A stretch of 55,656 nt of DNA from an uncultured Thiodictyon sp. GTDB taxonomy: Bacteria > Pseudomonadota > Gammaproteobacteria > Chromatiales > Chromatiaceae. The notes under the pieces were generated by a model, which did not search any database, was not told where the DNA came from, and was given only the letters and a program-made list of their open reading frames with translations. Below, one piece after another: positions 7,651 through 36,370 of the stretch (its first letter is position 1; every line of letters starts with the position of its first letter). Location: positions 1 through 55,656 of the forward strand of contig CAILVI010000168.1 of the NCBI GenBank assembly GCA_903837595.1. Direction: 5' to 3'. Made by a program: the position numbers and the translations under genes.

Positions 7651-8575
7651 GCGCGCACTCAAGTGGAAATGGTCGTTTCAGCATCGGGAACCCCAGCGTT
7701 TCACGCCTTTCGAGGTACGTCTGCGCGACGTCTCGTGCGAGCGCACGAACCCGCAGGATAAACCGCTGTCGCTCGGTCACCGAGATGGCACCACGTGCAT
7801 CCAACAAATTGAACGCATGCGACGCCTTTAGTACCTGTTCATACGCCGGCAGCGGCAGTCCGTCGGTAACCAGTTGCCGACTCATCCGTTCGCTCGCGTC
7901 GAATGTCGCCAACAAGGCTGCGACGTCGGCCTTCTCAAAATTATAGGTCGACTGTTCAACCTCGTTCTGATGGAAAACGTCCCCGTAGGTGATCAACCCC
8001 TCAGAAGATCGGCTCCAGACAAGATCATAAACGCTTTCAACTGACTGTAAGTACATGGCGATGCGTTCCAGACCGTAAGTAATTTCCCCGCTAACCGGGC
8101 GACAATCGAGTCCTCCGATCTGTTGAAAATAGGTGAACTGGGTGACCTCCATACCATTTAGCCAGACCTCCCAGCCGAGTCCCCAGGCACCAAGTGTGGG
8201 TGATTCCCAGTTATCTTCCACAAAACGGATATCATGGACGAGCGGATCGATCCCGAGGTATCGCAGGGACTCCAAGTAGAGTTCTTGAATATCGAGCGGC
8301 GCAGGCTTCAACAGAACCTGAAACTGATAATAATGTTGCAGCCTGTTTGGGTTTTCCCCATAGCGGCCATCAGTTGGTCGCCGCGAAGGCTGAACGTAAG
8401 CGCAACGCCAAGGTTCCGGGCCGATCGAGCGCAGAAATGTGGAAGGATGAAAGGTGCCGGCGCCGACCTCCATATCATGAGGTTGGACAATGACGCACCC
8501 CAAGGCCGCCCAATAGCGCTGCAGCGCAAAAATGATGCCCTGGAATGTGGCGACATCCACCGGCTCAAGATTCAA
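7643..8575 (-). CDS. glyQ: Glycine--tRNA ligase, alpha subunit
   Basis: The catalytic subunit that activates glycine and charges tRNA-Gly. Family signatures are unmistakable: [14 protein letters not shown] near the start, [40 protein letters not shown], and the C-terminal region. The open frame extends to an ATG at 8656, but those extra residues do not look like GlyQ. I prefer TTG 8575, which follows GGGGG by six bases and gives 310 residues; GTG 8593 is an alternative. The gene opens the leftward glyQ-glyS-gmhB-plsC-like block. Confidence 0.92.
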
Positions 8576-9465
8576 GCTATACCCCCGCTGCACGTTGACT
8601 AGATAAGTGCCCAGTATAGCTGTTGTGCAGCCTCGGTTGAAGCTTCTTCCCGCCAAGGTAGGGCCGGTCTGACTTATCCCTGCCCAGCAGCGGGGCTAGA
8701 GTGAGAGCAGTTCGGCTAACGCGCCAGCAACAGGGCACCGAGCCTGTGAGCTTTCCGTGTATACGAAAGGGTATGGCGGACGCGCCGTGAGCGATTTCTG
8801 GCCGGGCTGGGACAGTTCGGGCCTGGAGGGCATTGCTTAACATGTTGGTATGTTTGGACAGTTTTCTTGCTGCTCGGGGCGGCGCTTGGGCGGGAGTCGG
8901 ATTGGCATGGTGCTTGTCACCTGCCTCGTCGGGCCATGGCAGTGCTTGAACGACCAGGCGAGAGGGGGCTCCTTCGCATCCGCAGGCATGAGGAGTGAAG
9001 CGGCCTTCGCCTGGGCGGACTTGTGAGACGATGCGCCATCACCGCTGTGTGTCCGCAGTCACTTGGTAGCGCTCGTACACGCGATGCTGGCGATGCGGCC
9101 GTGCGGCACCACAAGGCCCGGCTGGTCTACCCGTACTCCTGGAAGTCCTGTCTAGCCTTGCCCTTGGCCTCGTCTATCTGCTTGGGTGCGTAATTTTTTT
9201 GGCCAGAGCAAGGAGGGGGTGAAGAGGGTATGATATCCGAGTGGCGACGACAAGCCGAATACTGCTGGCCTGCCATCAATGGCAGGCCTCGGCGGAACAA
9301 TTGAGTGAGGCTATAGTAAATTGGGTAACAGCATTGCGGACGCGGTCCACGAAAGCGACCGTAGACTTGCCAGGCCGGTAGTGATGGCATTGTTACCCGG
9401 CATGAACTCGCCGCCCAGCAGGGTGTTTTTGTGGCATCGTGGCGTGGGCTAGCCCTGCATTTCAG
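8576..9465. other. Intergenic region between glyQ and tsaC
   Basis: Nearly 0.9 kb without a gene I can support. It must hold the leftward glyQ promoter. A perfect inverted repeat lies at 9267-9288 (GGCCTGCCAT, two-base loop, ATGGCAGGCC). Short frames on both strands show no recognisable domain and look like decayed coding sequence. The local GC content rises from the dnaA side towards tsaC. Confidence 0.5.
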
Positions 9466-10032
9466 ATGACTGCTCCCTTGCGTCATCACCGCTTGCGGCT
9501 GGCCGCCCGCGTTATTGCTCATGGCGGCCTGCTCGCTTATCCGACGGAGGCGGTCTATGGGTTGGGTTGCGATCCATGGAACGCAACCGCGGTCATGCGA
9601 CTGCTTGCGCTCAAGCGCCGCGATCCGGCGAAGGGGCTGATCGTGATCGCCTCCCAGGTCGAGCAACTCGCGCCGTTCGTCTTACCCCTGTGGCCCGAGC
9701 GGATGTCGGAGATACTCGCCTCCTGGCCTGGGCCCAACACCTGGCTGATGCCCGCCCGCAGGGGTGTGCCGGACTGGCTCCGGGGCCGTTTCGACACCCT
9801 CGCGGTGCGCGTCACCCAGCACCCCCTGGCGGCGGGTTTGTGCCGGGCATACGGTGGCGCCATCGTCTCTACGAGTGCCAACGTCGCGGATCGCCCGCCG
9901 GCCCGGTCCGCCATTGAGGTTCGCCGCCGCCTCTCCGGTGGACTCGACCTGATCCTCGCGGGGGCCTGCGGCGGGGCGGACCGGCCCTCTATCATTCGCG
10001 ACGGGCGCACCCGCCAGGTACTGCGCACCTGA
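9466..10032 (+). CDS. tsaC: L-threonylcarbamoyladenylate synthase (YrdC/Sua5 domain)
   Basis: TsaC makes threonylcarbamoyl-AMP from threonine, bicarbonate and ATP, the first step of t6A37 tRNA modification. From ATG 9466 it has 188 residues, the size of E. coli TsaC. It shows GGLLAYPTEAVYGLGCDP (about residues 21-38), LKRRDPAKGLIVIAS, and the AIVSTSANVADRPP motif near residue 138, all in the YrdC nucleotide-binding fold. A GTG at 9439 would extend the N-terminus by nine residues; neither start has a strong ribosome binding site. Confidence 0.94.
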   Translation: MTAPLRHHRLRLAARVIAHGGLLAYPTEAVYGLGCDPWNATAVMRLLALKRRDPAKGLIVIASQVEQLAPFVLPLWPERMSEILASWPGPNTWLMPARRGVPDWLRGRFDTLAVRVTQHPLAAGLCRAYGGAIVSTSANVADRPPARSAIEVRRRLSGGLDLILAGACGGADRPSIIRDGRTRQVLRT

Positions 10033-26272: not shown

Positions 26273-26524
26273 GGTTCGCAGGGAAGTCCCGGTCGAACGG
26301 GTCAGCAAGGTTTACGCCGTGGCACCGAAGCGGCAGACATCCACCGCCGACTAGGTCTGGGGTTGGTGCCCGTCTTGCCGACCATCCGCCAGCTCGGGCG
26401 CCGGAACGCACCGCCTGCCCGGCCAACGTCCACTAAGCGCCGATGCACGGCTGCGTCGGGTATCATGCCCAGTCACCGCAGACGGCGCGCCGCGCTGCCT
26501 GATCACTGGAACCCACGAGAGCGC

Positions 26525-28633
26525 ATGAACACGGAGACCCACGCCCAACTCGCCGCCTTTATCTGGGACATCTGCAACCTGCTGCGCGGTCCCTACCGGC
26601 GTAACGAGTACCGCAAGGTCATCCTGCCGCTGACGGTGCTGCGGCGCTTCGACTGCATCCTGGCCCCGACCAAGCAGGCGGTACTGGCCGTCTACCGGGC
26701 CAACCTGGCCAAGCCGGAGACCGTGCGCCAGCGTCTGTTGCAGCAGGCCGCGGGTTTGAGCTTCTACAACACGAGCCGGCTGGACTTTCCCCGACTACTC
26801 GACGATCCCAACCAGCTTGCGCCCAACCTGACGGCCTACATCGACGCCTTCTCACCCAACGTGCGAACCATCATGGAGCGCTTCGGCTTCGAGCAGCAGA
26901 TCGCCAAGATGGCCGAGAAGAACATCCTGTTCAAGGTCGTCAAGGCGTTCTGCGACCCGCGGGTGGACCTGTCAACGCAGCGCGTCGACCACATGCAGAT
27001 GGGCTATGTCTTCGAAGAGCTGATCCGGATCGGCGCCGAGCAGGCCAACGAGGAGGCCGGGGAGCACTTCACCCCGCGGGAGGTTATCAAGCTGATGGTC
27101 AACCTGCTGCTCTCGCCGGAACGCGACTTGGCGCGGGCCAACGTGGTCAAGACCATCTACGACCCGGCCTGCGGTACCGGGGGCATGCTCTCCGAGGCCG
27201 AGAAGTACATCCGCCAATTGAACGCCGATGCCCAGCCCCACCTCTACGGCCAGGACTGGAACGACGAGGCGTGGGCGGTCTGCAAGTCGGACATGCTGAT
27301 CAAGCGCGAGGATGCCGAGAACATCAAGCGCGGCGACAGCTTCATGGAGGACTATTTCGACCGCGACGCCCGCGGCCGGCGCTGGACCTTCGATTACATG
27401 CTGGCCAATCCGCCCTTCGGCGTCACCTGGAAGCAGCAGGAGGACTTCATCGTCAAGGAGCGCGACCGCCTGGGATTCGACGGCCGCTTCGGCGCCGGTA
27501 CGCCCCGGGTCAATGACGGAGCACTGCTGTTCCTTCAGCACATGCTGGCCAAGAGCCGTGCCCCCGAGGACGGCGGCACCCGCATTGCCATCGTCTTCAA
27601 CGGCTCGCCACTCTTCACCGGGGATGCCGAAGGCGGCGAGAGCAACATCCGGCGCTGGATCATCGAGAACGATTGACTCGAAGCCGTCGTCGCCCTGCCG
27701 GACCAGCTCTTTTACAACACGGGCATCGCCACCTATATCCGGGTCCTGACCAACCGCAAGGAGCAGCACCGGCGCGGCCGTGTCCAACTCATCGACGCCC
27801 GCCGTTTCTACGTCAAGATGAAGAAGAGCCTGGGGAACAAGCGCAATAAGATCGGGGACCCCGGCGAGCCGGGCGAGCCGGACCATCTCGGCGAGATCAC
27901 GCGCATCCATGGCGACTGCCGGCATGACGACGGCCGCGTATCCAACATCGACGGGCGGGACAAGCGTCTGACGGTCTCCAAGGTCCTGGACAACGCTGAT
28001 CTTGGGTACCACAAGATCACGGTGGAGCGCCCGCTTCGACTCAACTTCCAGGCGAGCGAGGCACGTATCGCACGGCTCGACCTACAAAGCGGCTTTCGCG
28101 CCCTGGCGACGCCCCGAAAAATGGCCGAGGACGCCCGGCGGGTCGAGATCGAGGAAGGTCTAAACCGTCAGGACGCACTGCGGGATTTCTGCCGCACCCT
28201 GGGCGAGCAGACGCAGGAGCGGCTATTCACGGACCGCCCGGAGTTTCAGGCGGCGATCAGCGGGACGGTGCGCGCGACCGGCTTGAAGCTCTCGCTGCCC
28301 GAGCGCAAGCTGATCCTGGCCGCCTTGGGCGAGCGCGACGAACAGGCCGCCATCTGCACCGATGCCCAAGGCAACCCGGAGCCCGACCCGGAGTTGCGTG
28401 ATACCGAGATCGTACCCCTGACGGAAGCAATCCAGACCTACTTCGAGCGCGAGGTCCTGCCCCATGTGCCGGATGCCTGGATCGATCACGAGAAGACCCG
28501 GATCGGCTATGAGATCCCGCTCAACCGCCACTTCTACCGCTACGAGCCGCCGCGCCCGCTGCCAGAGATCGAGGGCGATATCAAGCGGCTGGAGCAGGAG
28601 ATACTGACCCTCTTATCGGAGGTAACCGCATGA
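26525..28633 (+). pseudogene. hsdM: Type I restriction-modification methyltransferase HsdM, interrupted by TGA
   Basis: HsdM is the N6-adenine methyltransferase subunit of type I systems. From ATG 26525 the frame encodes the HsdM N-terminal helical domain, the SAM-binding motif DPACGTGGML (about residue 218) and the catalytic NPPFG (about residue 298), then meets an in-frame TGA at 27674-27676 (codon 384). Translation in the same frame continues after it with LEAVVALPDQLFYNTGIATY, ordinary HsdM sequence, to 28633. The family usually has tryptophan at the interrupted place (ENDWLEA), so a TGG-to-TGA change is likely. Full length would be 702 residues. The stop overlaps the next gene by four bases. 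Confidence 0.9.
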
Positions 28634-29735
28634 TCACGCGTCTCTATGTCGACAACTTCCGCTGCCTGGTCAACTTTGAGCTGAAGTTTCAGGATTTCAC
28701 CCTGTTGGCGGGTCTCAATGGCTCGGGTAAGTCCTCCGTACTCGATGTGATGTACGCGCTTCAGCTTTTGCTCTCTGGTCAAGCCAATATCAACCACAAG
28801 CATGTGCTGCCGAACGCCAGTCGCACCCGTTGGAGCGAGCGCGACACGCAGGTTGTCGAACTGAACGCTCAAGTCGGCGACGAGGAAATGCGGTATCGCC
28901 TGAAGGTGCAGCATGAAGCGGGGGGCGCAAGGCACGAATCGTCGAAGAGCGGCTTCTGTCGCCGGATGGACCATTGTTCGTGTTCGAGAACGGGGAAGTA
29001 CAACTTTACCGCGACAACCTCAGCGAGGGACCCAAGTTCTCGGAGGATTGGAGCGAGTCTGCGCTGGCTCGCGTCCCCCCCCGGCCCGACAATCGGCGAC
29101 TGACCGGCTTTCTAGACCTGATGAACAGGGTCCATGTCTGTCGGTTGAATCCATCGACATTTGGTGGCGACAGCCCTCACGAAGAGCAAGTCCTGCAGCG
29201 CGAAGGAAACAACTTCTCTTCCTGGTATCGACACCTGGTTCAGGAACACGGGGACAGCTTTGAGTACCGTTCGGTTCTCCAGAGCACCATCAACGACTTC
29301 CAGAAGCTTCGCCTGGAAAAGGTCGGCGCCGATGCGCGGACACTCGTGGCGGTCTTCGGCACGGGCAAGGCAGAGTACGAGTTGGGACTTGAGGAACTGT
29401 CCGACGGTCAACGCGTACTCCTCATCCTTTACGGCCTGCTCCACTTCCTGGACAAGTCCGGACATCTTCTTTTCTTGGACGAACCTGACAATTTTTTGGC
29501 GGCTTCGGAGATTCAGCCATGGCTACTTTCGGCTGAGGATGCGATTGAGGAAGGTCTGCCGCGGGTGGTGATCGCCTCTCACCATGCCGAGGTGATTGAC
29601 TACCTTGGGGGAGATCGCGGCATCCTGCTGGAGCGTGAGGATACTGGGGTGACGAAGACCCGGCCACTGCGGGATGTCGGCATCCCCGATACGATGAAGC
29701 TGTCCGAGGTTCTCACCCGAGGCTGGGAGCGATGA
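28630..29735 (+). pseudogene. AAA/ABC-type ATPase of an embedded defence-like module, frameshifted
   Basis: An ATPase of the SMC/ABC-like AAA15/AAA21 kind seen in OLD, RloA and PARIS-type systems. The first frame starts MITRLYVDNFRCLVNFELKF and holds Walker A GLNGSGKSS (about residues 30-38). After a six-G run at 28920-28925 the family sequence continues in another frame (IVEERLLSPDGPLFVFENG onward) with a signature-like LSDGQR, Walker B HLLFLDEPDNFL and the H-loop VIASHHAEVID. A single missing base in or near the G run restores a 368-residue protein. It overlaps hsdM by ATGA and the next gene by ATGA. Confidence 0.82.
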
Positions 29736-30348
29736 CCCGGCGCCGCGTCCAACTCGTCATCCTGTGTGAAGTCGCCAGCACGCGGCCTTTGCGCGCCGCT
29801 TCGCCTACGCCAACGGCTGGAACAAGCGACAGATCGATGTTATTCCGAATCCTTACGGCCGCGAGGGCCGTGGTAGCGGGGAACAATGGGTCAGAAAGCG
29901 CTATGCCGTTGAAGTGGCTAAGCTACGCCGCGCACCGCATGTCGCTCGGGCACTCGTGGTTATAATCGATAATGACATGAAAAATCTGCCGCCTGCCCAA
30001 CCAGCGGGAGAAGCGGTCCAGCCGTTCAAGAAAGCCCACGAGAAACGAATCAAGAGTCGCGAAGAGCAGCTGGCGCTAGCACTGGAGGAAGCGGGTTTGC
30101 CGGCAAGAACGCCCGACCAGGCCGTGCTGCATATCGTTCCGGCCCGCAACATCGAAACCTGGCTCGAATATCTGAAGGGCGAAGAGGTCGACGAGCGCGG
30201 AAAGAAACTTTATAAGGATTCACCAGAACGCGATTGCCGCCCGATGGTCGAAAAACTCAAAGCGATGTGCGACGCCCAGAGGCTTCGCGAGCCCGCACCA
30301 GCCTCGCTTGAGCGCGCCTGCACCGAATACCGGACAAGGATGCAATGA
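29732..30348 (+). pseudogene. TOPRIM-like putative nuclease partner of the ATPase, frameshifted
   Basis: The frame starts MTRRRVQLVILCE and then shifts; adding one base near 29771 gives a continuous 205-residue protein continuing QHAAFARRFAYANGWN. The conserved acidic CE near residue 13 and LVVIIDND near residue 75 (E...DxD) resemble a TOPRIM core, as in OLD-associated, RloB-like or AriB-like nucleases that work with AAA ATPases. I cannot assign the exact family. It is coupled to the ATPase gene by an ATGA overlap and lies before hsdS. The predicted role is an antiphage effector triggered through the ATPase, by analogy only. Confidence 0.65.
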
Positions 30349-30463
30349 GACAGATTCACTCTGCGGAGAAATGCCTGCTGGTGGCAATAGCGGGTCTTGG
30401 TCGAGGCGCGAGGCTGGCCCTATCGGGCCGAGGTTGGGTCTTGAATCGCGGGAGGTTCGCGCG

Positions 30464-31909
30464 ATGAAGTGGCCGGCTTATCCCGAGTACAAGGAGAGCG
30501 AGGTCGAATGGTTGAGAGAAGTGCCAAGAGATTGGGAAGTTAAGCCCGTCAAGCGTATCGGCCGTATCCGGTACGGCTTGGGCGAACCGCCGGAGCTAGC
30601 CGAAGACGGCATCCCATTTATTCGCGCGACGGATATGAAGAAAGGCCATATCGTGCTCGAAACTGCGCTGCGGGTTAATCCCAGCGAAGTTCCTTGGGGT
30701 CGTGGACCGCAACTTCGGACGGGAGAGATTCTTGTTGTCAGGAGTGGCGCTTACACGGGCGATTCGGCATTAGTCACCGAGGAGTGTGACGGATGAATCG
30801 CGGGATACGACATGGTTGTTACCCTGCAATCCGTTGTTCCGCGCTTTGTCGCCTGGGTATTCCTATCTAAGTATGTGGTGGAGAGCCAATTCGAGATTGC
30901 GAGGTCTCGGGCAGCACAACCGCATCTCAATGCCGAGGACCTCGCCAGCGCGATATTGACGTTACCTTCGATATCCGAACAGGAGGAGATTGCTGACTTT
31001 CTCGACGCAAAGACCGCGAAAATTGATGTCCTGATCGCAAAAAAACGAGAATTGATCGGCCAACTTAAAGAGAAGCGTGCGGCCCTGATCGCCCACGCAG
31101 TGACCCGCGGCTTACCTCCCGACGCTGCCGCGGCGGCCGGCTTCGATCGCGATCCTCCGCGCAAGCCTTCAGGCATTCAGTGGCTTGGGGATATCCCTGA
31201 TCACTGGGGCTTGGCGCCCCTATGCTACCTGGTTAAGTTTCGCGGGGGTTCGACCCCGAGCAAAGACAATCCGGAATTCTGGGACGGCGAAACTCCTTGG
31301 GTATCCGCGAAAGATATGAAAGTCTGGGAGATCGGTGATTCGATCGATCACGTTTCAGAAGAAGCCCTGCGCGAAACCAGCCTGACGGTCTTGCCCCATG
31401 ATTCGGTGCTTATCGTGGTGCGCGGCATGATTCTGATTCATACGTTCCCGGTCGCCCGGACAACGGCGAATGTCACGATCAATCAGGACATGAAGGCGCT
31501 GCTTGCAGGCCCGCGCATCCTGCCCGCATTCCTTCAGTTCGCCTTGTCTGGTTTTTCGAAGGTTTTCATTTCCCTCACCGATGAATCGGCGCATGGAACA
31601 CGTAAGATCGAGCAGGCGGTTCTTGCGCGCTTCATGCTGGCTATTCCACCAATCCGCGAGCAAGAAGCTATCGTCAATTACCTGGAATTGGAGCGTGAAC
31701 GAACGGATTTGCTTCTTTCCAAGGTCATGGTGATTGTCGCGCAACTGTCGGAATACCGGTCGTCCCTCATCACCGCTGCCGTCACCGGCAAGATCGACGT
31801 GCGCGGTTGGCGGGAAGCGAGCAACCGCGCCTCTCCCGAGGTCGTCGCGATGGGTTTCGCTGCGCTCTACCCATCCTACCCCGGCCAACCGCACGGCACG
31901 AGATCGTAG
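30464..31909 (+). pseudogene. hsdS: Type I specificity subunit HsdS, interrupted by TGA
   Basis: HsdS reads the DNA target for methylation and cleavage through two target recognition domains. ATG 30464 follows GGGAGG. The first domain runs through WPAYPEYKESEVEWL to GDSALVTEECDG, where an in-frame TGA (30794-30796, codon 111) interrupts it. The same frame resumes IAGYDMVVTLQS, typical HsdS. The central helical spacer SEQEEIADFLDAKTAKID, the second domain starting SGIQWLGDIPDHWG and the second spacer REQEAIVNYLELER are all present. The last residues (GFAALYPSYPG and beyond) are encoded by a REP palindrome, so the natural C-terminus has been replaced. Full length would be 481 residues. Confidence 0.88.
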
Positions 31910-32056
31910 CATGGTCAGAGCGCAGCGAAACCCATCATCCCCCAACCACCGGATAGCGCGGCGTCGTAGGATGGGTAGAGCGCAGCGAAACCCGTCATCC
32001 CCCAACCGCCGGATAGCGCGGTATCCTAGGATGGGTAGAGCGCAGCGAAACCCATC
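31849..32056. repeat. REP palindrome cluster upstream of the RAYT gene
   Basis: One inverted copy (31849-31879, GATGGGTTTCGC then GCTCTACCCATCCTAC) overlaps the end of hsdS. It is followed by three direct copies of the complementary unit starting at 31906, 31966 and 32026, so the direct copies have an exact 60-base period. Each contains GTAGAGCGCAGCGAAACCC or a near match. Such units are substrates of the adjacent REP-associated tyrosine transposase. Confidence 0.88.
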
Positions 32057-32080
32057 GTTGCCGGGCGCGGAGCCAAGGTT

Positions 32081-32614
32081 ATGACCGATTACCGTCGCTG
32101 CCGCGTCCCGGGTGGGACCTATTTCTTTACCCTGACGCTACAGGAGCGGGCTGCGTCGCTGCTCGTCGACCGTATCGATGACCTCCGCAACGCCTTTCGG
32201 GAGGTCCGCACGCAGCACCCGTTCACAATCGAGGCGATCGTGGTTTTGCCCGCGCATCTGCATTGCATTTGGTCGCTGCCCGACGGCGACAGCGATTACA
32301 GTATGCGCTGGCGTCAGATCAAGTCGGCCTTTTCGCGTACCATCCCCAAGGAGGAGCGGCTGTCGGCAAGCCGACGGCGCAAGGGCGAACGGGGTATCTG
32401 GCAACGGCGATTCTGGGAGCACACCATTCGTGACGACCGGGGATACGCGACCCGCTTCGATTACATTCATTACAATCCCGTGAAACACGGGTATGTCAAA
32501 CGGGTGAAGGATTGGCCGTTTTCTTCCTTCCATCGTTATGTTCGGCTGGGGGTTTATCCGGAGGATTGGGGCGGCGATCCGGATCTGGCCCAGTTGGATT
32601 TGGAAGAGGACTGA
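32081..32614 (+). mobile_element. REP-associated tyrosine transposase (RAYT)
   Basis: A single-domain Y1 transposase that nicks and joins REP palindromes. The 177-residue protein has the HUH motif as LPAHLHCIW (about residues 56-64), the catalytic tyrosine in FDYIHYNPVKHGY (about residues 125-137), and the typical RDDRGYATRFDYIH and WPFSSFHRYV stretches. It is flanked by three direct REP units and one inverted unit on the left and an inverted unit on the right (32650-32680), a complete REPtron-like arrangement. It lies inside the type I operon between hsdS and hsdR and shows no lesion. Confidence 0.93.
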
Positions 32615-32649
32615 CGGGCGGCCGGGCGGCGTTCCACTTGGGCGGGGGT

Positions 32650-32680
32650 GATGGGTTTCGCTTCGCTCTACCCATCCTAC
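32650..32680. repeat. REP palindrome downstream of the RAYT gene
   Basis: GATGGGTTTCGCTTCGCTC followed by TACCCATCCTAC, the same unit as at 31849-31879 with one base different, in the same orientation. With the left cluster it brackets the transposase. It lies 50 bases before hsdR and would add spurious codons if hsdR were started at the upstream ATG. Confidence 0.88.
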
Positions 32681-32728
32681 GAACGGCGAATGGCGAACGA
32701 TAAACATAATGAAGACGGCAGGATCGCG

Positions 32729-35700
32729 ATGAGCCAGACGAACGAGCACGCCTTCGAGTCCTATTGCGAGCAGATGCTGCTGACCCAGGGCGGATGGGAG
32801 CGGGGCGACCTGGCCGAATGGGATCGGGGCCTGGCGCTCTTTCCCGCCCGAGTCTGCGCCTTTCTGGCGGATTCACAACCGGTCTTGTGGCAGAAGCTGC
32901 ACGACCTGCACGGCGACGCTCTGAGGACCAGGGTGGTCGCGGTCCTGGCCAAGGAACTGGACCTCAAGGGGATGCTGCATGTCCTGCGCCGCGGCTTTAA
33001 GTTCCAAGGCAAGACCTTGCGCATGGCCTACTTCAAGCCGGCCCATGGGCTGAACGCGGCCGTGGTCGAACTATTCGCCAAGAATCGCCTCACGGTGACG
33101 CGACAGGTGCCGTGCCACGCCAAGGGCGGTAAGACCTTGGATATGCTGCTGGCACTCAATGGACTGCCCATCGGGACCTGCGAACTGAAGAATCCGGGTA
33201 CCGGCGAGAACTGGCGGCATGCAGTGCAGCAGTACCGCAGCCGCCGGGACCCCGCTGCCCCCTTGTTCCAGTTCAAGGCCCGTGCCCTAGTGCACTTCGC
33301 CGTCGACCCGGATGAGGTGCATATGACGACGCGCCTGCTGGGGGAGCGCACGCGCTTCCTGCCCTTCAACCGGGGTAGCGACCCCGGGACCATCGGCTGC
33401 GGGGCCGGGAATCCGGCGCACCGGTCCGGCTATCGCACCGGCTATTTCTGGGAGGATGTGCTGGCCCGGGAGGGGCTGCTGGAGGTGCTGGGCAGCTTCA
33501 TGTTCATCGAGCGCAAGGAGGAGAAGCAGGAGGACGCCAAGGGCAAGGTCCGCCGCGTCACCAAAGAGACGCTGATCTTTCCCCGCTATCACCAACTCGA
33601 TGCGGTGCGTCTCTTGGTGCGGTTGGCCGGTGTAGAGGGGGCCGGGCACAATTCGCTCACCCAGCACTCGGCCGGCAGCGGCAAGACCAATACCATTTCT
33701 TGGCTGGCCCATCGGTTGGCGAGCCTGCATACCGACGGCGATCTGAAGGTCTTCGATTGCGTCGTCGTCATCACGGATCGCCGGGTGCTAGACCGCCAAT
33801 TGCAGGACGCGATTTACCAGATCGAACACGCACAGGGCGTGGTCAAGGCCATTGACGAAGACTCGGCTCAACTCGCCCTGGCCCTGGTCGATGGGACCAA
33901 GATCGTCATCACGACCTTGCAGAAGTTCCCGTTCGTGCTGCGCGGCCTGCTCCGTGCGGCCGGGGCCGAGAGCGTCGATGCGCCGTCCGCGGCTGCTCGC
34001 GAACGGGCGGCTGCCTGGAAGGCGCAGATTGCCACCCGCCGATACGCAATCATCGTGGATGAGGCCCATTCCAGCCAGACCGGCGAGACGGCCCGCGAGA
34101 TGAAGGCGATTCTGGGCGCCGGGTCTGGCTTTTCGGACCCCGAGCACGCGGAACCCACCGCGGTCGACGAGGCGAACCCGGACGAACCGCCGGCCAACGA
34201 CTGGCAGGATGGGCTTGCCGCGGTCCTGGAGACCCGCGGACCCCAGCCGAACCTGAGCTTCTTCGCCTTCACGGCGACGCCCAAGCCTCGGACCCTGGAG
34301 TTGTTCGGGCGGCGGATCGATTCGGAAATTCCGCAGGCGATCCACGTTTACAGCATGCGTCAGGCCATCGAGGAGGGATTCATCCTGGATGTGCTGACGA
34401 ACTACACGACCTATGAGGTGTATTACCGCCTGCTCAAGAAGGTCGCCGACGATCCGCTCCTGCCGGAACGCAAGGCGACGAAGGCCCTGGCGCGCCACAT
34501 GAGTCTGCACGAGTACAACATTGAGCAGAAGACGGCGATCATGGTGGAGCATTTCCGCGGGAAGGTCATGCCGCGTGTGCAGGGCCAGGCCAAGGCCATG
34601 GTGGTGACCGGCTCGCGCCTTCATGCCGTGCGCTACATGCTGGCCTTCCAGCGCTACATCAGCGCGCACGGTTATCCGGATGTGCGCCCGCTGGTCGCCT
34701 TCAGCGGCACCGTACGTGACCCGAAGAGCCATCTGGAGCACACCGAGCCCCGGATGAATCCTGACTGCGTGACCGGCAAGCCGATCGGCGAGGCGGCCCT
34801 GCCCGAACGTTTCGATTCCAGCGACTACAACCTCTTGCTGGTCGCCGACAAGTATCAGACCGGCTTCGATCAGCCCAAGTTGCTCGCCATGTACGTGGAC
34901 AAGCGCCTGGACGGCGTGCAGGCGGTGCAGACGCTCTCCCGCCTCAATCGCAACTTGCCCGGCAAGGATGCCCAGTTCGTGCTGGACTTCGTGAACAAGG
35001 CCGAGGACATCTTTAAGGCGTTCAAGCCCTATTTCGACGTCGCCCACCTTGAGGAGACGTCAGACCCCGCGTTGCTGAACCGGCTGAAGCATGAGCTGGA
35101 CCAGACACAGGTCTACCACTGGCGGGAGGTCGAGGCGTTCGCCCGGGTCTTCTACCGGGCGCCGGAGCGCCAGGCCCCGGCCGATCACGCAGCGATGGAG
35201 AAGCAGCTTCAGCCTGCCGTCGATCGCTTCCGCGAGCTTCCCGACGATGAGGCACGGCAGGCGTTTCTGGACCGCCTCAGGGGCTTCGTCCGCGCCTATG
35301 CCTTTCTCAGCCAGATCATTCCCTACGCTGACCAAGAGCTTGAAATGCTCTACAGCTTCGGCCGCTTTCTGCTGCCCCATCTGCACGTTGGGGACGCCGA
35401 AACGCCGGTGCGGCTGGCGGATGAGGTCGCGCTGGAATACTACCGGGCTGACCGCGCCTTCTCCGGCCTCATTGACCTGCGCGACGGGGACCCGGTACCG
35501 CTCAAGCCGACGAAAGATATCGGCACTGGCCGGGCCGAAGACCCGCCCGCGCCGCTCTCGGAGATAATCAAGGCACTGAACGAGCGCTTCAGCACTGCCT
35601 TCAGCGAGGAAGATCGGCTGTTCCTGGCCCAGATCGAGGAACGGGCGCTCAAAGATGAACAGATCGCCGGCACGGCCCGAGCGAACCCGCTGGACAAGTT

Positions 35701-35881
35701 CAAGGTCGGGGTACGCAAGGCCGTCGAAGGCCTGCTGGTGCAACAGGTGGAGGAGAACGATGCGTTCGTGACGCGCTACCTGGAAGACGAGGCATTCCAG
35801 CAAGTGGTCTTTGAGGGACTGGCCGAGGCGATCTTTGCAAACCTTAAGGACGAGCCGTCGGATCGGCCCGTGCGCCATTAA
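32729..35881 (+). CDS. hsdR: Type I restriction endonuclease subunit HsdR
   Basis: HsdR is the motor and nuclease subunit. From ATG 32729 (AGGA five bases upstream) it has 1050 residues and is uninterrupted. The N-terminal PD-(D/E)xK nuclease is visible as LDMLLALNGLPIGTCELKNP (about residues 137-156). The SF2 translocase follows: Walker A SAGSGKT (about residue 314), DEAH box IVDEAHSSQTG (about residue 446) and FTATPKPRTLELFG (about residue 515). The helical region that contacts HsdM is at the C-terminus. With hsdM and hsdS broken it should have no partner unless one is encoded elsewhere. Confidence 0.94.
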   Translation: MSQTNEHAFESYCEQMLLTQGGWERGDLAEWDRGLALFPARVCAFLADSQPVLWQKLHDLHGDALRTRVVAVLAKELDLKGMLHVLRRGFKFQGKTLRMAYFKPAHGLNAAVVELFAKNRLTVTRQVPCHAKGGKTLDMLLALNGLPIGTCELKNPGTGENWRHAVQQYRSRRDPAAPLFQFKARALVHFAVDPDEVHMTTRLLGERTRFLPFNRGSDPGTIGCGAGNPAHRSGYRTGYFWEDVLAREGLLEVLGSFMFIERKEEKQEDAKGKVRRVTKETLIFPRYHQLDAVRLLVRLAGVEGAGHNSLTQHSAGSGKTNTISWLAHRLASLHTDGDLKVFDCVVVITDRRVLDRQLQDAIYQIEHAQGVVKAIDEDSAQLALALVDGTKIVITTLQKFPFVLRGLLRAAGAESVDAPSAAARERAAAWKAQIATRRYAIIVDEAHSSQTGETAREMKAILGAGSGFSDPEHAEPTAVDEANPDEPPANDWQDGLAAVLETRGPQPNLSFFAFTATPKPRTLELFGRRIDSEIPQAIHVYSMRQAIEEGFILDVLTNYTTYEVYYRLLKKVADDPLLPERKATKALARHMSLHEYNIEQKTAIMVEHFRGKVMPRVQGQAKAMVVTGSRLHAVRYMLAFQRYISAHGYPDVRPLVAFSGTVRDPKSHLEHTEPRMNPDCVTGKPIGEAALPERFDSSDYNLLLVADKYQTGFDQPKLLAMYVDKRLDGVQAVQTLSRLNRNLPGKDAQFVLDFVNKAEDIFKAFKPYFDVAHLEETSDPALLNRLKHELDQTQVYHWREVEAFARVFYRAPERQAPADHAAMEKQLQPAVDRFRELPDDEARQAFLDRLRGFVRAYAFLSQIIPYADQELEMLYSFGRFLLPHLHVGDAETPVRLADEVALEYYRADRAFSGLIDLRDGDPVPLKPTKDIGTGRAEDPPAPLSEIIKALNERFSTAFSEEDRLFLAQIEERALKDEQIAGTARANPLDKFKVGVRKAVEGLLVQQVEENDAFVTRYLEDEAFQQVVFEGLAEAIFANLKDEPSDRPVRH

Positions 35882-35964: not shown

Positions 35965-36040
35965 TGGTGCCCAGGGGCGGAATCGAACCACCGACACGAG
36001 GATTTTCAATCCTCTGCTCTACCAACTGAGCTACCTGGGC
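35965..36040 (-). tRNA. tRNA-Phe (GAA)
   Basis: A 76-base cloverleaf on the minus strand: acceptor stem GCCCAGG/CCTGGGC, encoded CCA end, D-loop AGCTCAGTTGGTAGAGC, anticodon loop TTGAAAA with GAA, and T-arm GGTTCGATTCC. The sequence closely resembles E. coli tRNA-Phe. Its 3' end faces the hsd island. Confidence 0.97.
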
Positions 36041-36294: not shown

Positions 36295-36370
36295 TGGCTC
36301 CCCGGGACGGGCTCGAACCGCCGACCTAATGATTAACAGTCATCCGCTCTACCGACTGAGCTACCGGGGA
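36295..36370 (-). tRNA. tRNA-Asn (GTT)
   Basis: A 76-base cloverleaf on the minus strand: acceptor stem TCCCCGG/CCGGGGA, encoded CCA, D-arm AGCTCAGTCGGTAGAGC, anticodon loop CTGTTAA with GTT, T-arm GGTTCGAGCC. It matches the asparagine isoacceptor pattern. About 250 bases separate it from tRNA-Phe, with no gene between. Confidence 0.96.

Follow-up and report, generated by a model that had tools for sequence, protein, structure and literature searches.

The stretch of DNA analysed here, hereafter the window, comprises 55,656 nucleotides from an uncultured Thiodictyon sp. of the Chromatiaceae (contig CAILVI010000168.1 of assembly GCA_903837595.1) and contains a type I restriction operon in which a pair of genes, encoding a Rad50/OLD-like ABC ATPase and a small TOPRIM-like partner, is embedded. 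Reading of its open reading frames (ORFs) yielded the order hsdM, ATPase, partner, hsdS, a repetitive extragenic palindrome (REP)-associated tyrosine transposase (RAYT) and hsdR, all on the plus strand (Table 1). This confirmed the gene order, strand and coordinates proposed in an earlier note made from the sequence alone, as well as its two ATGA overlaps, joining hsdM to the ATPase gene and the ATPase gene to that of the partner.

Table 1 Features of the type I operon and its embedded gene pair (window coordinates).
Feature	Position	Strand	Basis
hsdM, type I methyltransferase	26525..28633	+	HsdM_N and N6_Mtase in first piece, N6_Mtase in second piece; PADLOC MTase_I in both
Rad50/OLD-like ABC ATPase	28630..29735	+	Pfam, PADLOC, motif reading; frame change near 28920; fold of intact relative L014
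Small TOPRIM-like partner	29732..30348	+	Motifs in two frames; frame change near 29771; fold of intact relative L014
ATGA overlap hsdM/ATPase	28630..28633	+	Sequence
ATGA overlap ATPase/partner	29732..29735	+	Sequence
Slot span, about 400 bp with another gene instead in same-genus L086	28634..30425		Window–L086 alignment
hsdS, specificity subunit	30464..31909	+	Specificity_I; 3' end enters REP
REP-like palindromes upstream of RAYT	31849..32060		Palindrome scan
RAYT, ORF intact	32081..32614	+	NF047646
REP-like element downstream of RAYT	32644..32682		Palindrome scan
hsdR, restriction/translocation subunit, ORF intact	32723..35881	+	Pfam, PADLOC, NCBIfam, L086 comparison

Based on Pfam, PADLOC and NCBIfam, the genes for all three subunits of a type I system lie in one operon. 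The two pieces of hsdM scored 547 and 316 bits against the PADLOC MTase_I model and the carboxy-terminal piece of hsdS 250 bits against Specificity_I; hsdR exceeded the Pfam cut-offs for SWI2_SNF2 and HSDR_N, and its match to TIGR00348 (E = 3.9e-47, 161 bits) stayed under the model cut-off of 285. The start of hsdR is more likely at 32723 than at 32648, because the opening MSQTNEHAFE is also found in the same-genus locus L086 and the frame from 32648 reads out of a REP. The RAYT, with 206 bits against NF047646 (cut-off 80) and REPs on both sides, has the features of a REP-associated transposase. The GC content was 0.58–0.59 for the ATPase and partner genes and 0.64 for hsdM and hsdR; with hsdS also low at 0.57, base composition is neutral.

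Four of the six genes are broken, leaving only RAYT and hsdR open. The three restriction subunits are not all intact, as hsdM and hsdS carry in-frame TGA codons at 27674–27676 and 30794–30796, respectively. Comparison with relatives located single-base frame changes in the ATPase and partner genes (Table 1); the earlier note had reported these two frameshifts correctly, and its count fell short by the two stops. Sequencing or assembly errors in an otherwise functional operon would suit a draft assembly of 576 contigs in which two of the four lesions are single-base frame changes. However, this explanation is very unlikely, as the other two lesions are stops that leave the frame unchanged, all four are clustered within 3.2 kb, hsdR and RAYT are open, and the same-genus locus L086 has also decayed, through deletions of its own. 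Furthermore, long and uninterrupted frames for hsdM and hsdR occur in two more hsd operons of this assembly (L090 on contig C267 and L108 on C248), which renders decay likelier than poor base quality. The window operon and its cargo are thus likelier a fossil, and only reads could exclude sequence error. The ratio of non-synonymous to synonymous substitution rates (dN/dS) between the window and either of two closely related loci, L013 and L014, was 0.08–0.13 for the ATPase pieces and 0.20–0.25 for the partner, so that the lesions are probably recent.

The broken genes of the window were scored as separate pieces, and open relatives served for profiles and folds. The ATPase pieces match the Pfam families AAA_15 (2.5e-11) and AAA_21 (1.1e-6) and many defence ATPases in PADLOC, and still encode the Walker A, LSDGQ, DEPDN and SHH motifs. 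Relatives were aligned in 12 rows each for the partner (A1) and the ATPase (A2), drawn from eight of the 12 places of the phylum search and four loci of a named genome collection, omitting the window, L006 (without an LCED frame and unmatched by the profile) as well as L010 and L011, the second pieces of L003 and L004. Among the 12 ATPases, all have Walker A, DEP(D/E)N and SH(H/N), and 11 have LSDGQ. All 12 match PDC-M25A, mad3, HEC-01A and AriA in PADLOC, a library holding only defence and candidate-defence families, with best E-values from 1.5e-25 to 2.5e-20. AriA, at best 2.5e-20 (4e-17 for L014), ranked behind the other three.

The partner, of about 180 residues in the relatives, is a more elusive protein. 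Its window piece (29770–30345) matches no Pfam, PADLOC or NCBIfam family at E ≤ 1 and still encodes, in two frames, LCE (as VILCE), DND and PARNIETW. All 12 relatives carry LCED, DxD and a PxRNxExW-type motif, and fit the TOPRIM motif, in which strand 1 is followed by a glutamate and the third strand by DxD; in the model predicted for the intact relative L014, LCED and DxD follow strands 7–12 and 73–78. Library matches of the 12 relatives were weak: in Pfam, DUF3226 in two (best 2e-4) and DUF4276 in one (4e-4), both presumably TOPRIM-like families; in PADLOC, the most frequent HEC-01B model in five (best for any such model 5e-5), and mad4 in two (5e-5); in NCBIfam, only weak and unrelated names. 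The best structural match of the predicted L014 fold was the Toprim domain of the OLD nuclease 6p74, with modest support. Foldseek alone returned assorted unrelated rows and nothing significant, and a sequence search of the PDB with the partner profile gave one irrelevant match (E = 0.043). The PARIS AriA and AriB chains were not among the structural matches listed for partner or ATPase, which proves nothing. The ATPase/TOPRIM-like pair that had been suggested within a type I operon is supported, its separate small protein being a putative TOPRIM-fold nuclease.

A sequence search with the window partner piece identified relatives in 9 of 398 phylum genomes, its own included, and at four loci of the named genome collection (Lamprocystis purpurea, a Chromatiaceae metagenome-assembled genome (MAG), a cyanobacterial MAG and a Desulfobacterales bacterium); the same piece had no match in a plasmid search. 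The partner profile found 10 of 194 family genomes, 1 of 369 class genomes (the window alone) and 10 of 398 phylum genomes, again counting its own each time. In a joint survey of 28 loci with flanks of varying length, four of them plasmid loci reached via the ATPase, the window aside, 24 loci contained 25 clear partner places, and one further weak place lay on a Kovacikia plasmid (2e-4). An ATPase gene lies directly upstream on the same strand at 24 of the 25 places, the exception being L041. The fetched flanks of 22 of the 24 relative loci showed no match (E ≤ 1e-5) to the hsd proteins of the window, the other two being L013 and L014, and nine stand-alone loci inspected by eye lie mostly amid housekeeping genes, outside defence islands. 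The ATPase and its partner are therefore a two-gene unit that mostly stands alone. Split or broken places amount to 6 of 14 within the family, window included, and 0 of 10 in other classes of the phylum; at L126 the profile search flagged one TAA inside the partner match, and the joint survey reads that partner in one frame. The Lamprocystis ATPase gave no match in a phage search, and viral contigs yielded 62 candidate stretches that all failed confirmation. Among individual loci, L037 (7800–11280) contains a tandem double copy of the pair with the frames split in both, and a neighbour of the pair at L140 resembles a STAND-type NTPase.

Close relatives of the window pair are those of the purple sulphur bacterium Lamprocystis purpurea (L014, pair at 7859–9513) and a related MAG (L013), in both of which the pair is open. 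The ATPases of the window, L013 and L014 form one clade with support of 99/99, the window being represented by its carboxy-terminal piece only. Both loci align with the window up to about codon 55 of hsdM (26454–26690) and resume just before the ATPase gene (28617 and 28596); neither hsdS nor hsdR was found in the fetched DNA, which retains only the hsdM stub. Between L013 and L014 the dN/dS was 0.20 for the ATPase gene (368 codons, with a dS of only 0.07) as well as for the partner gene (183 codons, dS 0.17), and judged by these ratios the pair is under purifying selection beside the stub. The two stubs resume 21 bases apart (L013 7825–7859, L014 7846–7859), and may reflect two separate deletions or one that was trimmed later.

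To place the insertion site among related operons, we used the amino-terminal hsdM piece, which matches 42 places in 37 of the 194 family genomes at E ≤ 1e-100. Of the 41 places outside the window 40 were fetched (G843 was left out), among which L116 has no hsdS match. No frame listed for these 40 hsd loci matches the window ATPase or partner at E ≤ 1e-5. Of 40 measurable operons, counting the window, 24 have more than 300 nt between hsdM and hsdS, 11 have the two genes in direct contact with an overlap of 4 bases or 1 base, three have an intermediate gap and two were mis-measured (L086, where the slot gene is merged into the hsdS frame, and L093, where an extended frame gives a negative gap). 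The closest case is the same-genus locus L086, with an hsdM 94% identical over 186 residues, where the alignment to the window stops at 28633 and restarts at 30426 with a different gene in between. Twenty proteins, picked by eye, were submitted to Pfam. Ten from the hsdM–hsdS slot comprised Abi_2 (2), RhuM (3), Fic, Schlafen AlbA_2, DUF1016_N, PIN and one without family. When 25 loci were checked for overlaps, 10 of them (L086, L088, L090, L097, L112, L114, L115, L117, L118 and L123) proved to have a cargo frame of 100 residues or more, starting with ATG or GTG, that overlaps the hsdM stop by 4 bases, as the ATPase gene does in the window. The hsdM–hsdS joint of one operon lineage thus behaves as a cargo slot with contents swappable at the stop codon and frequently joined by one type of overlap.

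Several further observations concern these operons and their cargo. In another type I operon of the window's own genome (L090, contig C267), the slot is occupied by a RhuM-family gene, which likewise overlaps the hsdM stop by 4 bases. A gene downstream of the pair in L013 (9541–10740), with a member of the same family downstream in L014 by tblastn, belongs to a family that, judged by its opening sequence, fills the hsdM–hsdS slot of L088 (from 4712), and its carboxy-terminal part is present in the slot of L086 (5860–6285); neither the L013 gene nor the L086 slot frame has a Pfam match. Nine cargo proteins from hsdS–hsdR gaps include AAA_21 ATPases (2), HNH, FRG, an IrrE-type peptidase and a DUF5655 protein, with two of the nine lacking a family and one under its cut-off. 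Two such gaps (L115 5497–7437 and L117 6088–8193) contain an ATPase-like gene and, after it, a second gene, Septu-like on inspection by eye; Pfam assigned the L115 ATPase to AAA_21 and the second L117 gene to HNH, whereas the second gene of L115 had no match. In L105 (10457–14096), downstream of a further hsd locus, ORFs repeat the string PRRIRRG, which resembles read-through of a repeat array, perhaps CRISPR. Directly downstream of hsdR in the window, tRNA-Phe (35965–36040) and tRNA-Asn (36295–36370) genes lie on the opposite strand; tRNA genes are usual sites for island insertion.

Among known systems, PARIS resembles the pair in having two genes, an OLD-like ABC ATPase and a separate TOPRIM protein, and in its recruitment to BREX restriction loci (PMC12839542). 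Recognition of phage proteins by AriA, the PARIS ATPase, sets free the TOPRIM nuclease AriB, which then cleaves tRNA (PMC12409363). In contrast, the window-type ATPase is only distantly similar to AriA, its partner has about 180 residues, and neither the 12 partner relatives nor the window pieces match AriB/DUF4435 at E ≤ 1. Likewise, the RloB family PF13707 was unmatched in the window's own genome and in the 12 relatives, upholding the earlier note's view that the partner does not clearly match a named pair. HEC-01, an embedded candidate system in PADLOC, shares an ATPase, HEC-01A, that matches all 12 ATPases, and HEC-01B is weakly present in some partners, with no match in the L014 partner or the window partner piece. 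The gene order of MADS, mad2 to mad5, resembles hsdM–ATPase–TOPRIM–hsdS. It likewise combines a methylase, an ATPase, a small protein and an HsdS, with mad3 and mad4 matching as given above; unlike MADS, the window has an ordinary hsdR. Membership in MADS was rejected, as the genes, scored in pieces against the NCBIfam cut-offs, reached at best 44 of 720 bits for MADS2 (hsdM), 44 of 420 for MADS3 (ATPase; 20 of 420 for its second piece) and 16 of 400 for MADS5 (hsdS), and in PADLOC the carboxy-terminal hsdS piece scored 81 bits to mad5 versus 250 to the plain type I model.

RloA/RloB are among several genes known from within Campylobacter hsd loci. Embedding of second defence genes in type I operons has further precedents, namely RloF of Campylobacter and TgvAB in Vibrio (PMC11411939) and PrrC in EcoprrI (PMC12707154); TgvAB differs as a GmrSD-related restriction system and PrrC as a single anticodon nuclease. 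OLD nucleases of classes 1–3, including Gabija GajA, also combine an ABC ATPase with a Toprim domain, in one chain (PMC10568477), whereas the window pair consists of two overlapping genes. A fused ATPase–TOPRIM defence protein is reported as HEC-04/IbfA (PMC12111858), auxiliary OLD-ABC + TOPRIM dyads are described in BREX loci (PMC12839542), and embedding is already in established use as a guide to new systems (PMC12988326). In our survey, distant ATPase relatives, 22–26% identical to the L015 ATPase, occur with partners of 252 and 245 residues inside BREX operons (L137 6001–7915 and L138 5001–6869), on plasmids of Oceanisphaera and Acinetobacter. Kinship of these partners with the window type was not significant (hhalign probability 0.8 and 3.7%), the likeness being a short motif only, IPKPxSEAWL versus PxRNIETWL. 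After pglX, L137 also encodes two proteins with a PARIS-like annotation, one ATP-binding and the other of the DUF4435 family. For the partner subfamily and its hsdM–hsdS placement no name was found in the family libraries and the accessible literature, which leaves most subscription papers outside and is no proof of absence. The kind is thus already known, and the pair resembles a divergent representative of the OLD-like ABC ATPase + TOPRIM dyads; the earlier description as an undescribed variant is fair in this sense, and a wholly new system is not supported.

We consider it fairly probable that the pair is an autonomous two-gene anti-phage dyad of the abortive type, inserted as cargo in the type I operon. 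As its relatives are mostly found on their own, the unit probably serves defence independently and is not part of the restriction enzyme. By analogy, its anatomy, with an SMC-like ATPase head bearing all catalytic motifs, a separate TOPRIM-like protein, near-constant order and overlapping or adjacent genes, is that of the sensor/effector dyad type. The OLD/Rad50-like ATPase would most likely be the sensor and gate; upon infection it would release or license the small TOPRIM-fold nuclease, which would cut nucleic acid. The anatomy, lesions, pairing, slot replacement and purifying selection are results of the analysis; this division of labour, as well as the nuclease activity and the anti-phage role, we infer by analogy with PARIS AriA/AriB. 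The pair would have entered the operon at the hsdM–hsdS joint, a slot holding unrelated cargo in related operons, and would thereby have come to overlap hsdM, a position that suggests co-expression and not joint action. In the genome of the window, host operon and cargo have since decayed; in the sister lineage, the hsd genes have been lost and the pair kept.

Function outside phage defence, as a toxin–antitoxin-like or selfish addiction cassette or as a DNA-repair or housekeeping pair, appears unlikely to us. Such a role would fit a small cassette scattered amid housekeeping genes, at L142 next to genes that by eye are sbcD- and sbcC-like, and cargo of the slot elsewhere includes the PIN and Fic families, common in toxin–antitoxin systems; yet the ATPases match PDC-M25A, mad3, HEC-01A and AriA, all from a defence-only library, and their distant relatives occur in BREX operons next to a small partner. 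We regard as quite unlikely a role of the pair as a guard dedicated to the restriction enzyme of its host operon, held inactive by the Hsd complex or sensing its inhibition and then killing the infected cell. The ATGA coupling to hsdM, from which the earlier note concluded that the genes were built for expression together with hsdM, speaks for such a guard, as do PrrC in EcoprrI (PMC12707154) and PARIS sensing Ocr (PMC12839542). However, joint work with hsdM was not supported by the comparison with relatives, 22 of the 24 relative loci being without a match to the window hsd proteins in their fetched flanks; the same 4-base overlap is common to unrelated cargo, and the Lamprocystis pair is under purifying selection with an hsdM stub only. 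Finally, we give very little credence to a methylation-guided defence in minimal or precursor form, arisen by insertion at the hsdM stop, in which the methylase and specificity subunits would lend sequence or modification recognition to the ATPase–nuclease and the stand-alone pairs would be its uncoupled form.

The pair adds a distinct small TOPRIM-like partner, without a name in the searched libraries, to the growing class of ABC-ATPase + TOPRIM dyads, and open, testable copies of it exist. The Lamprocystis-type loci provide a case of cargo outliving its restriction operon, and the shared stop-codon overlap offers a simple guide in the search for more embedded candidates.

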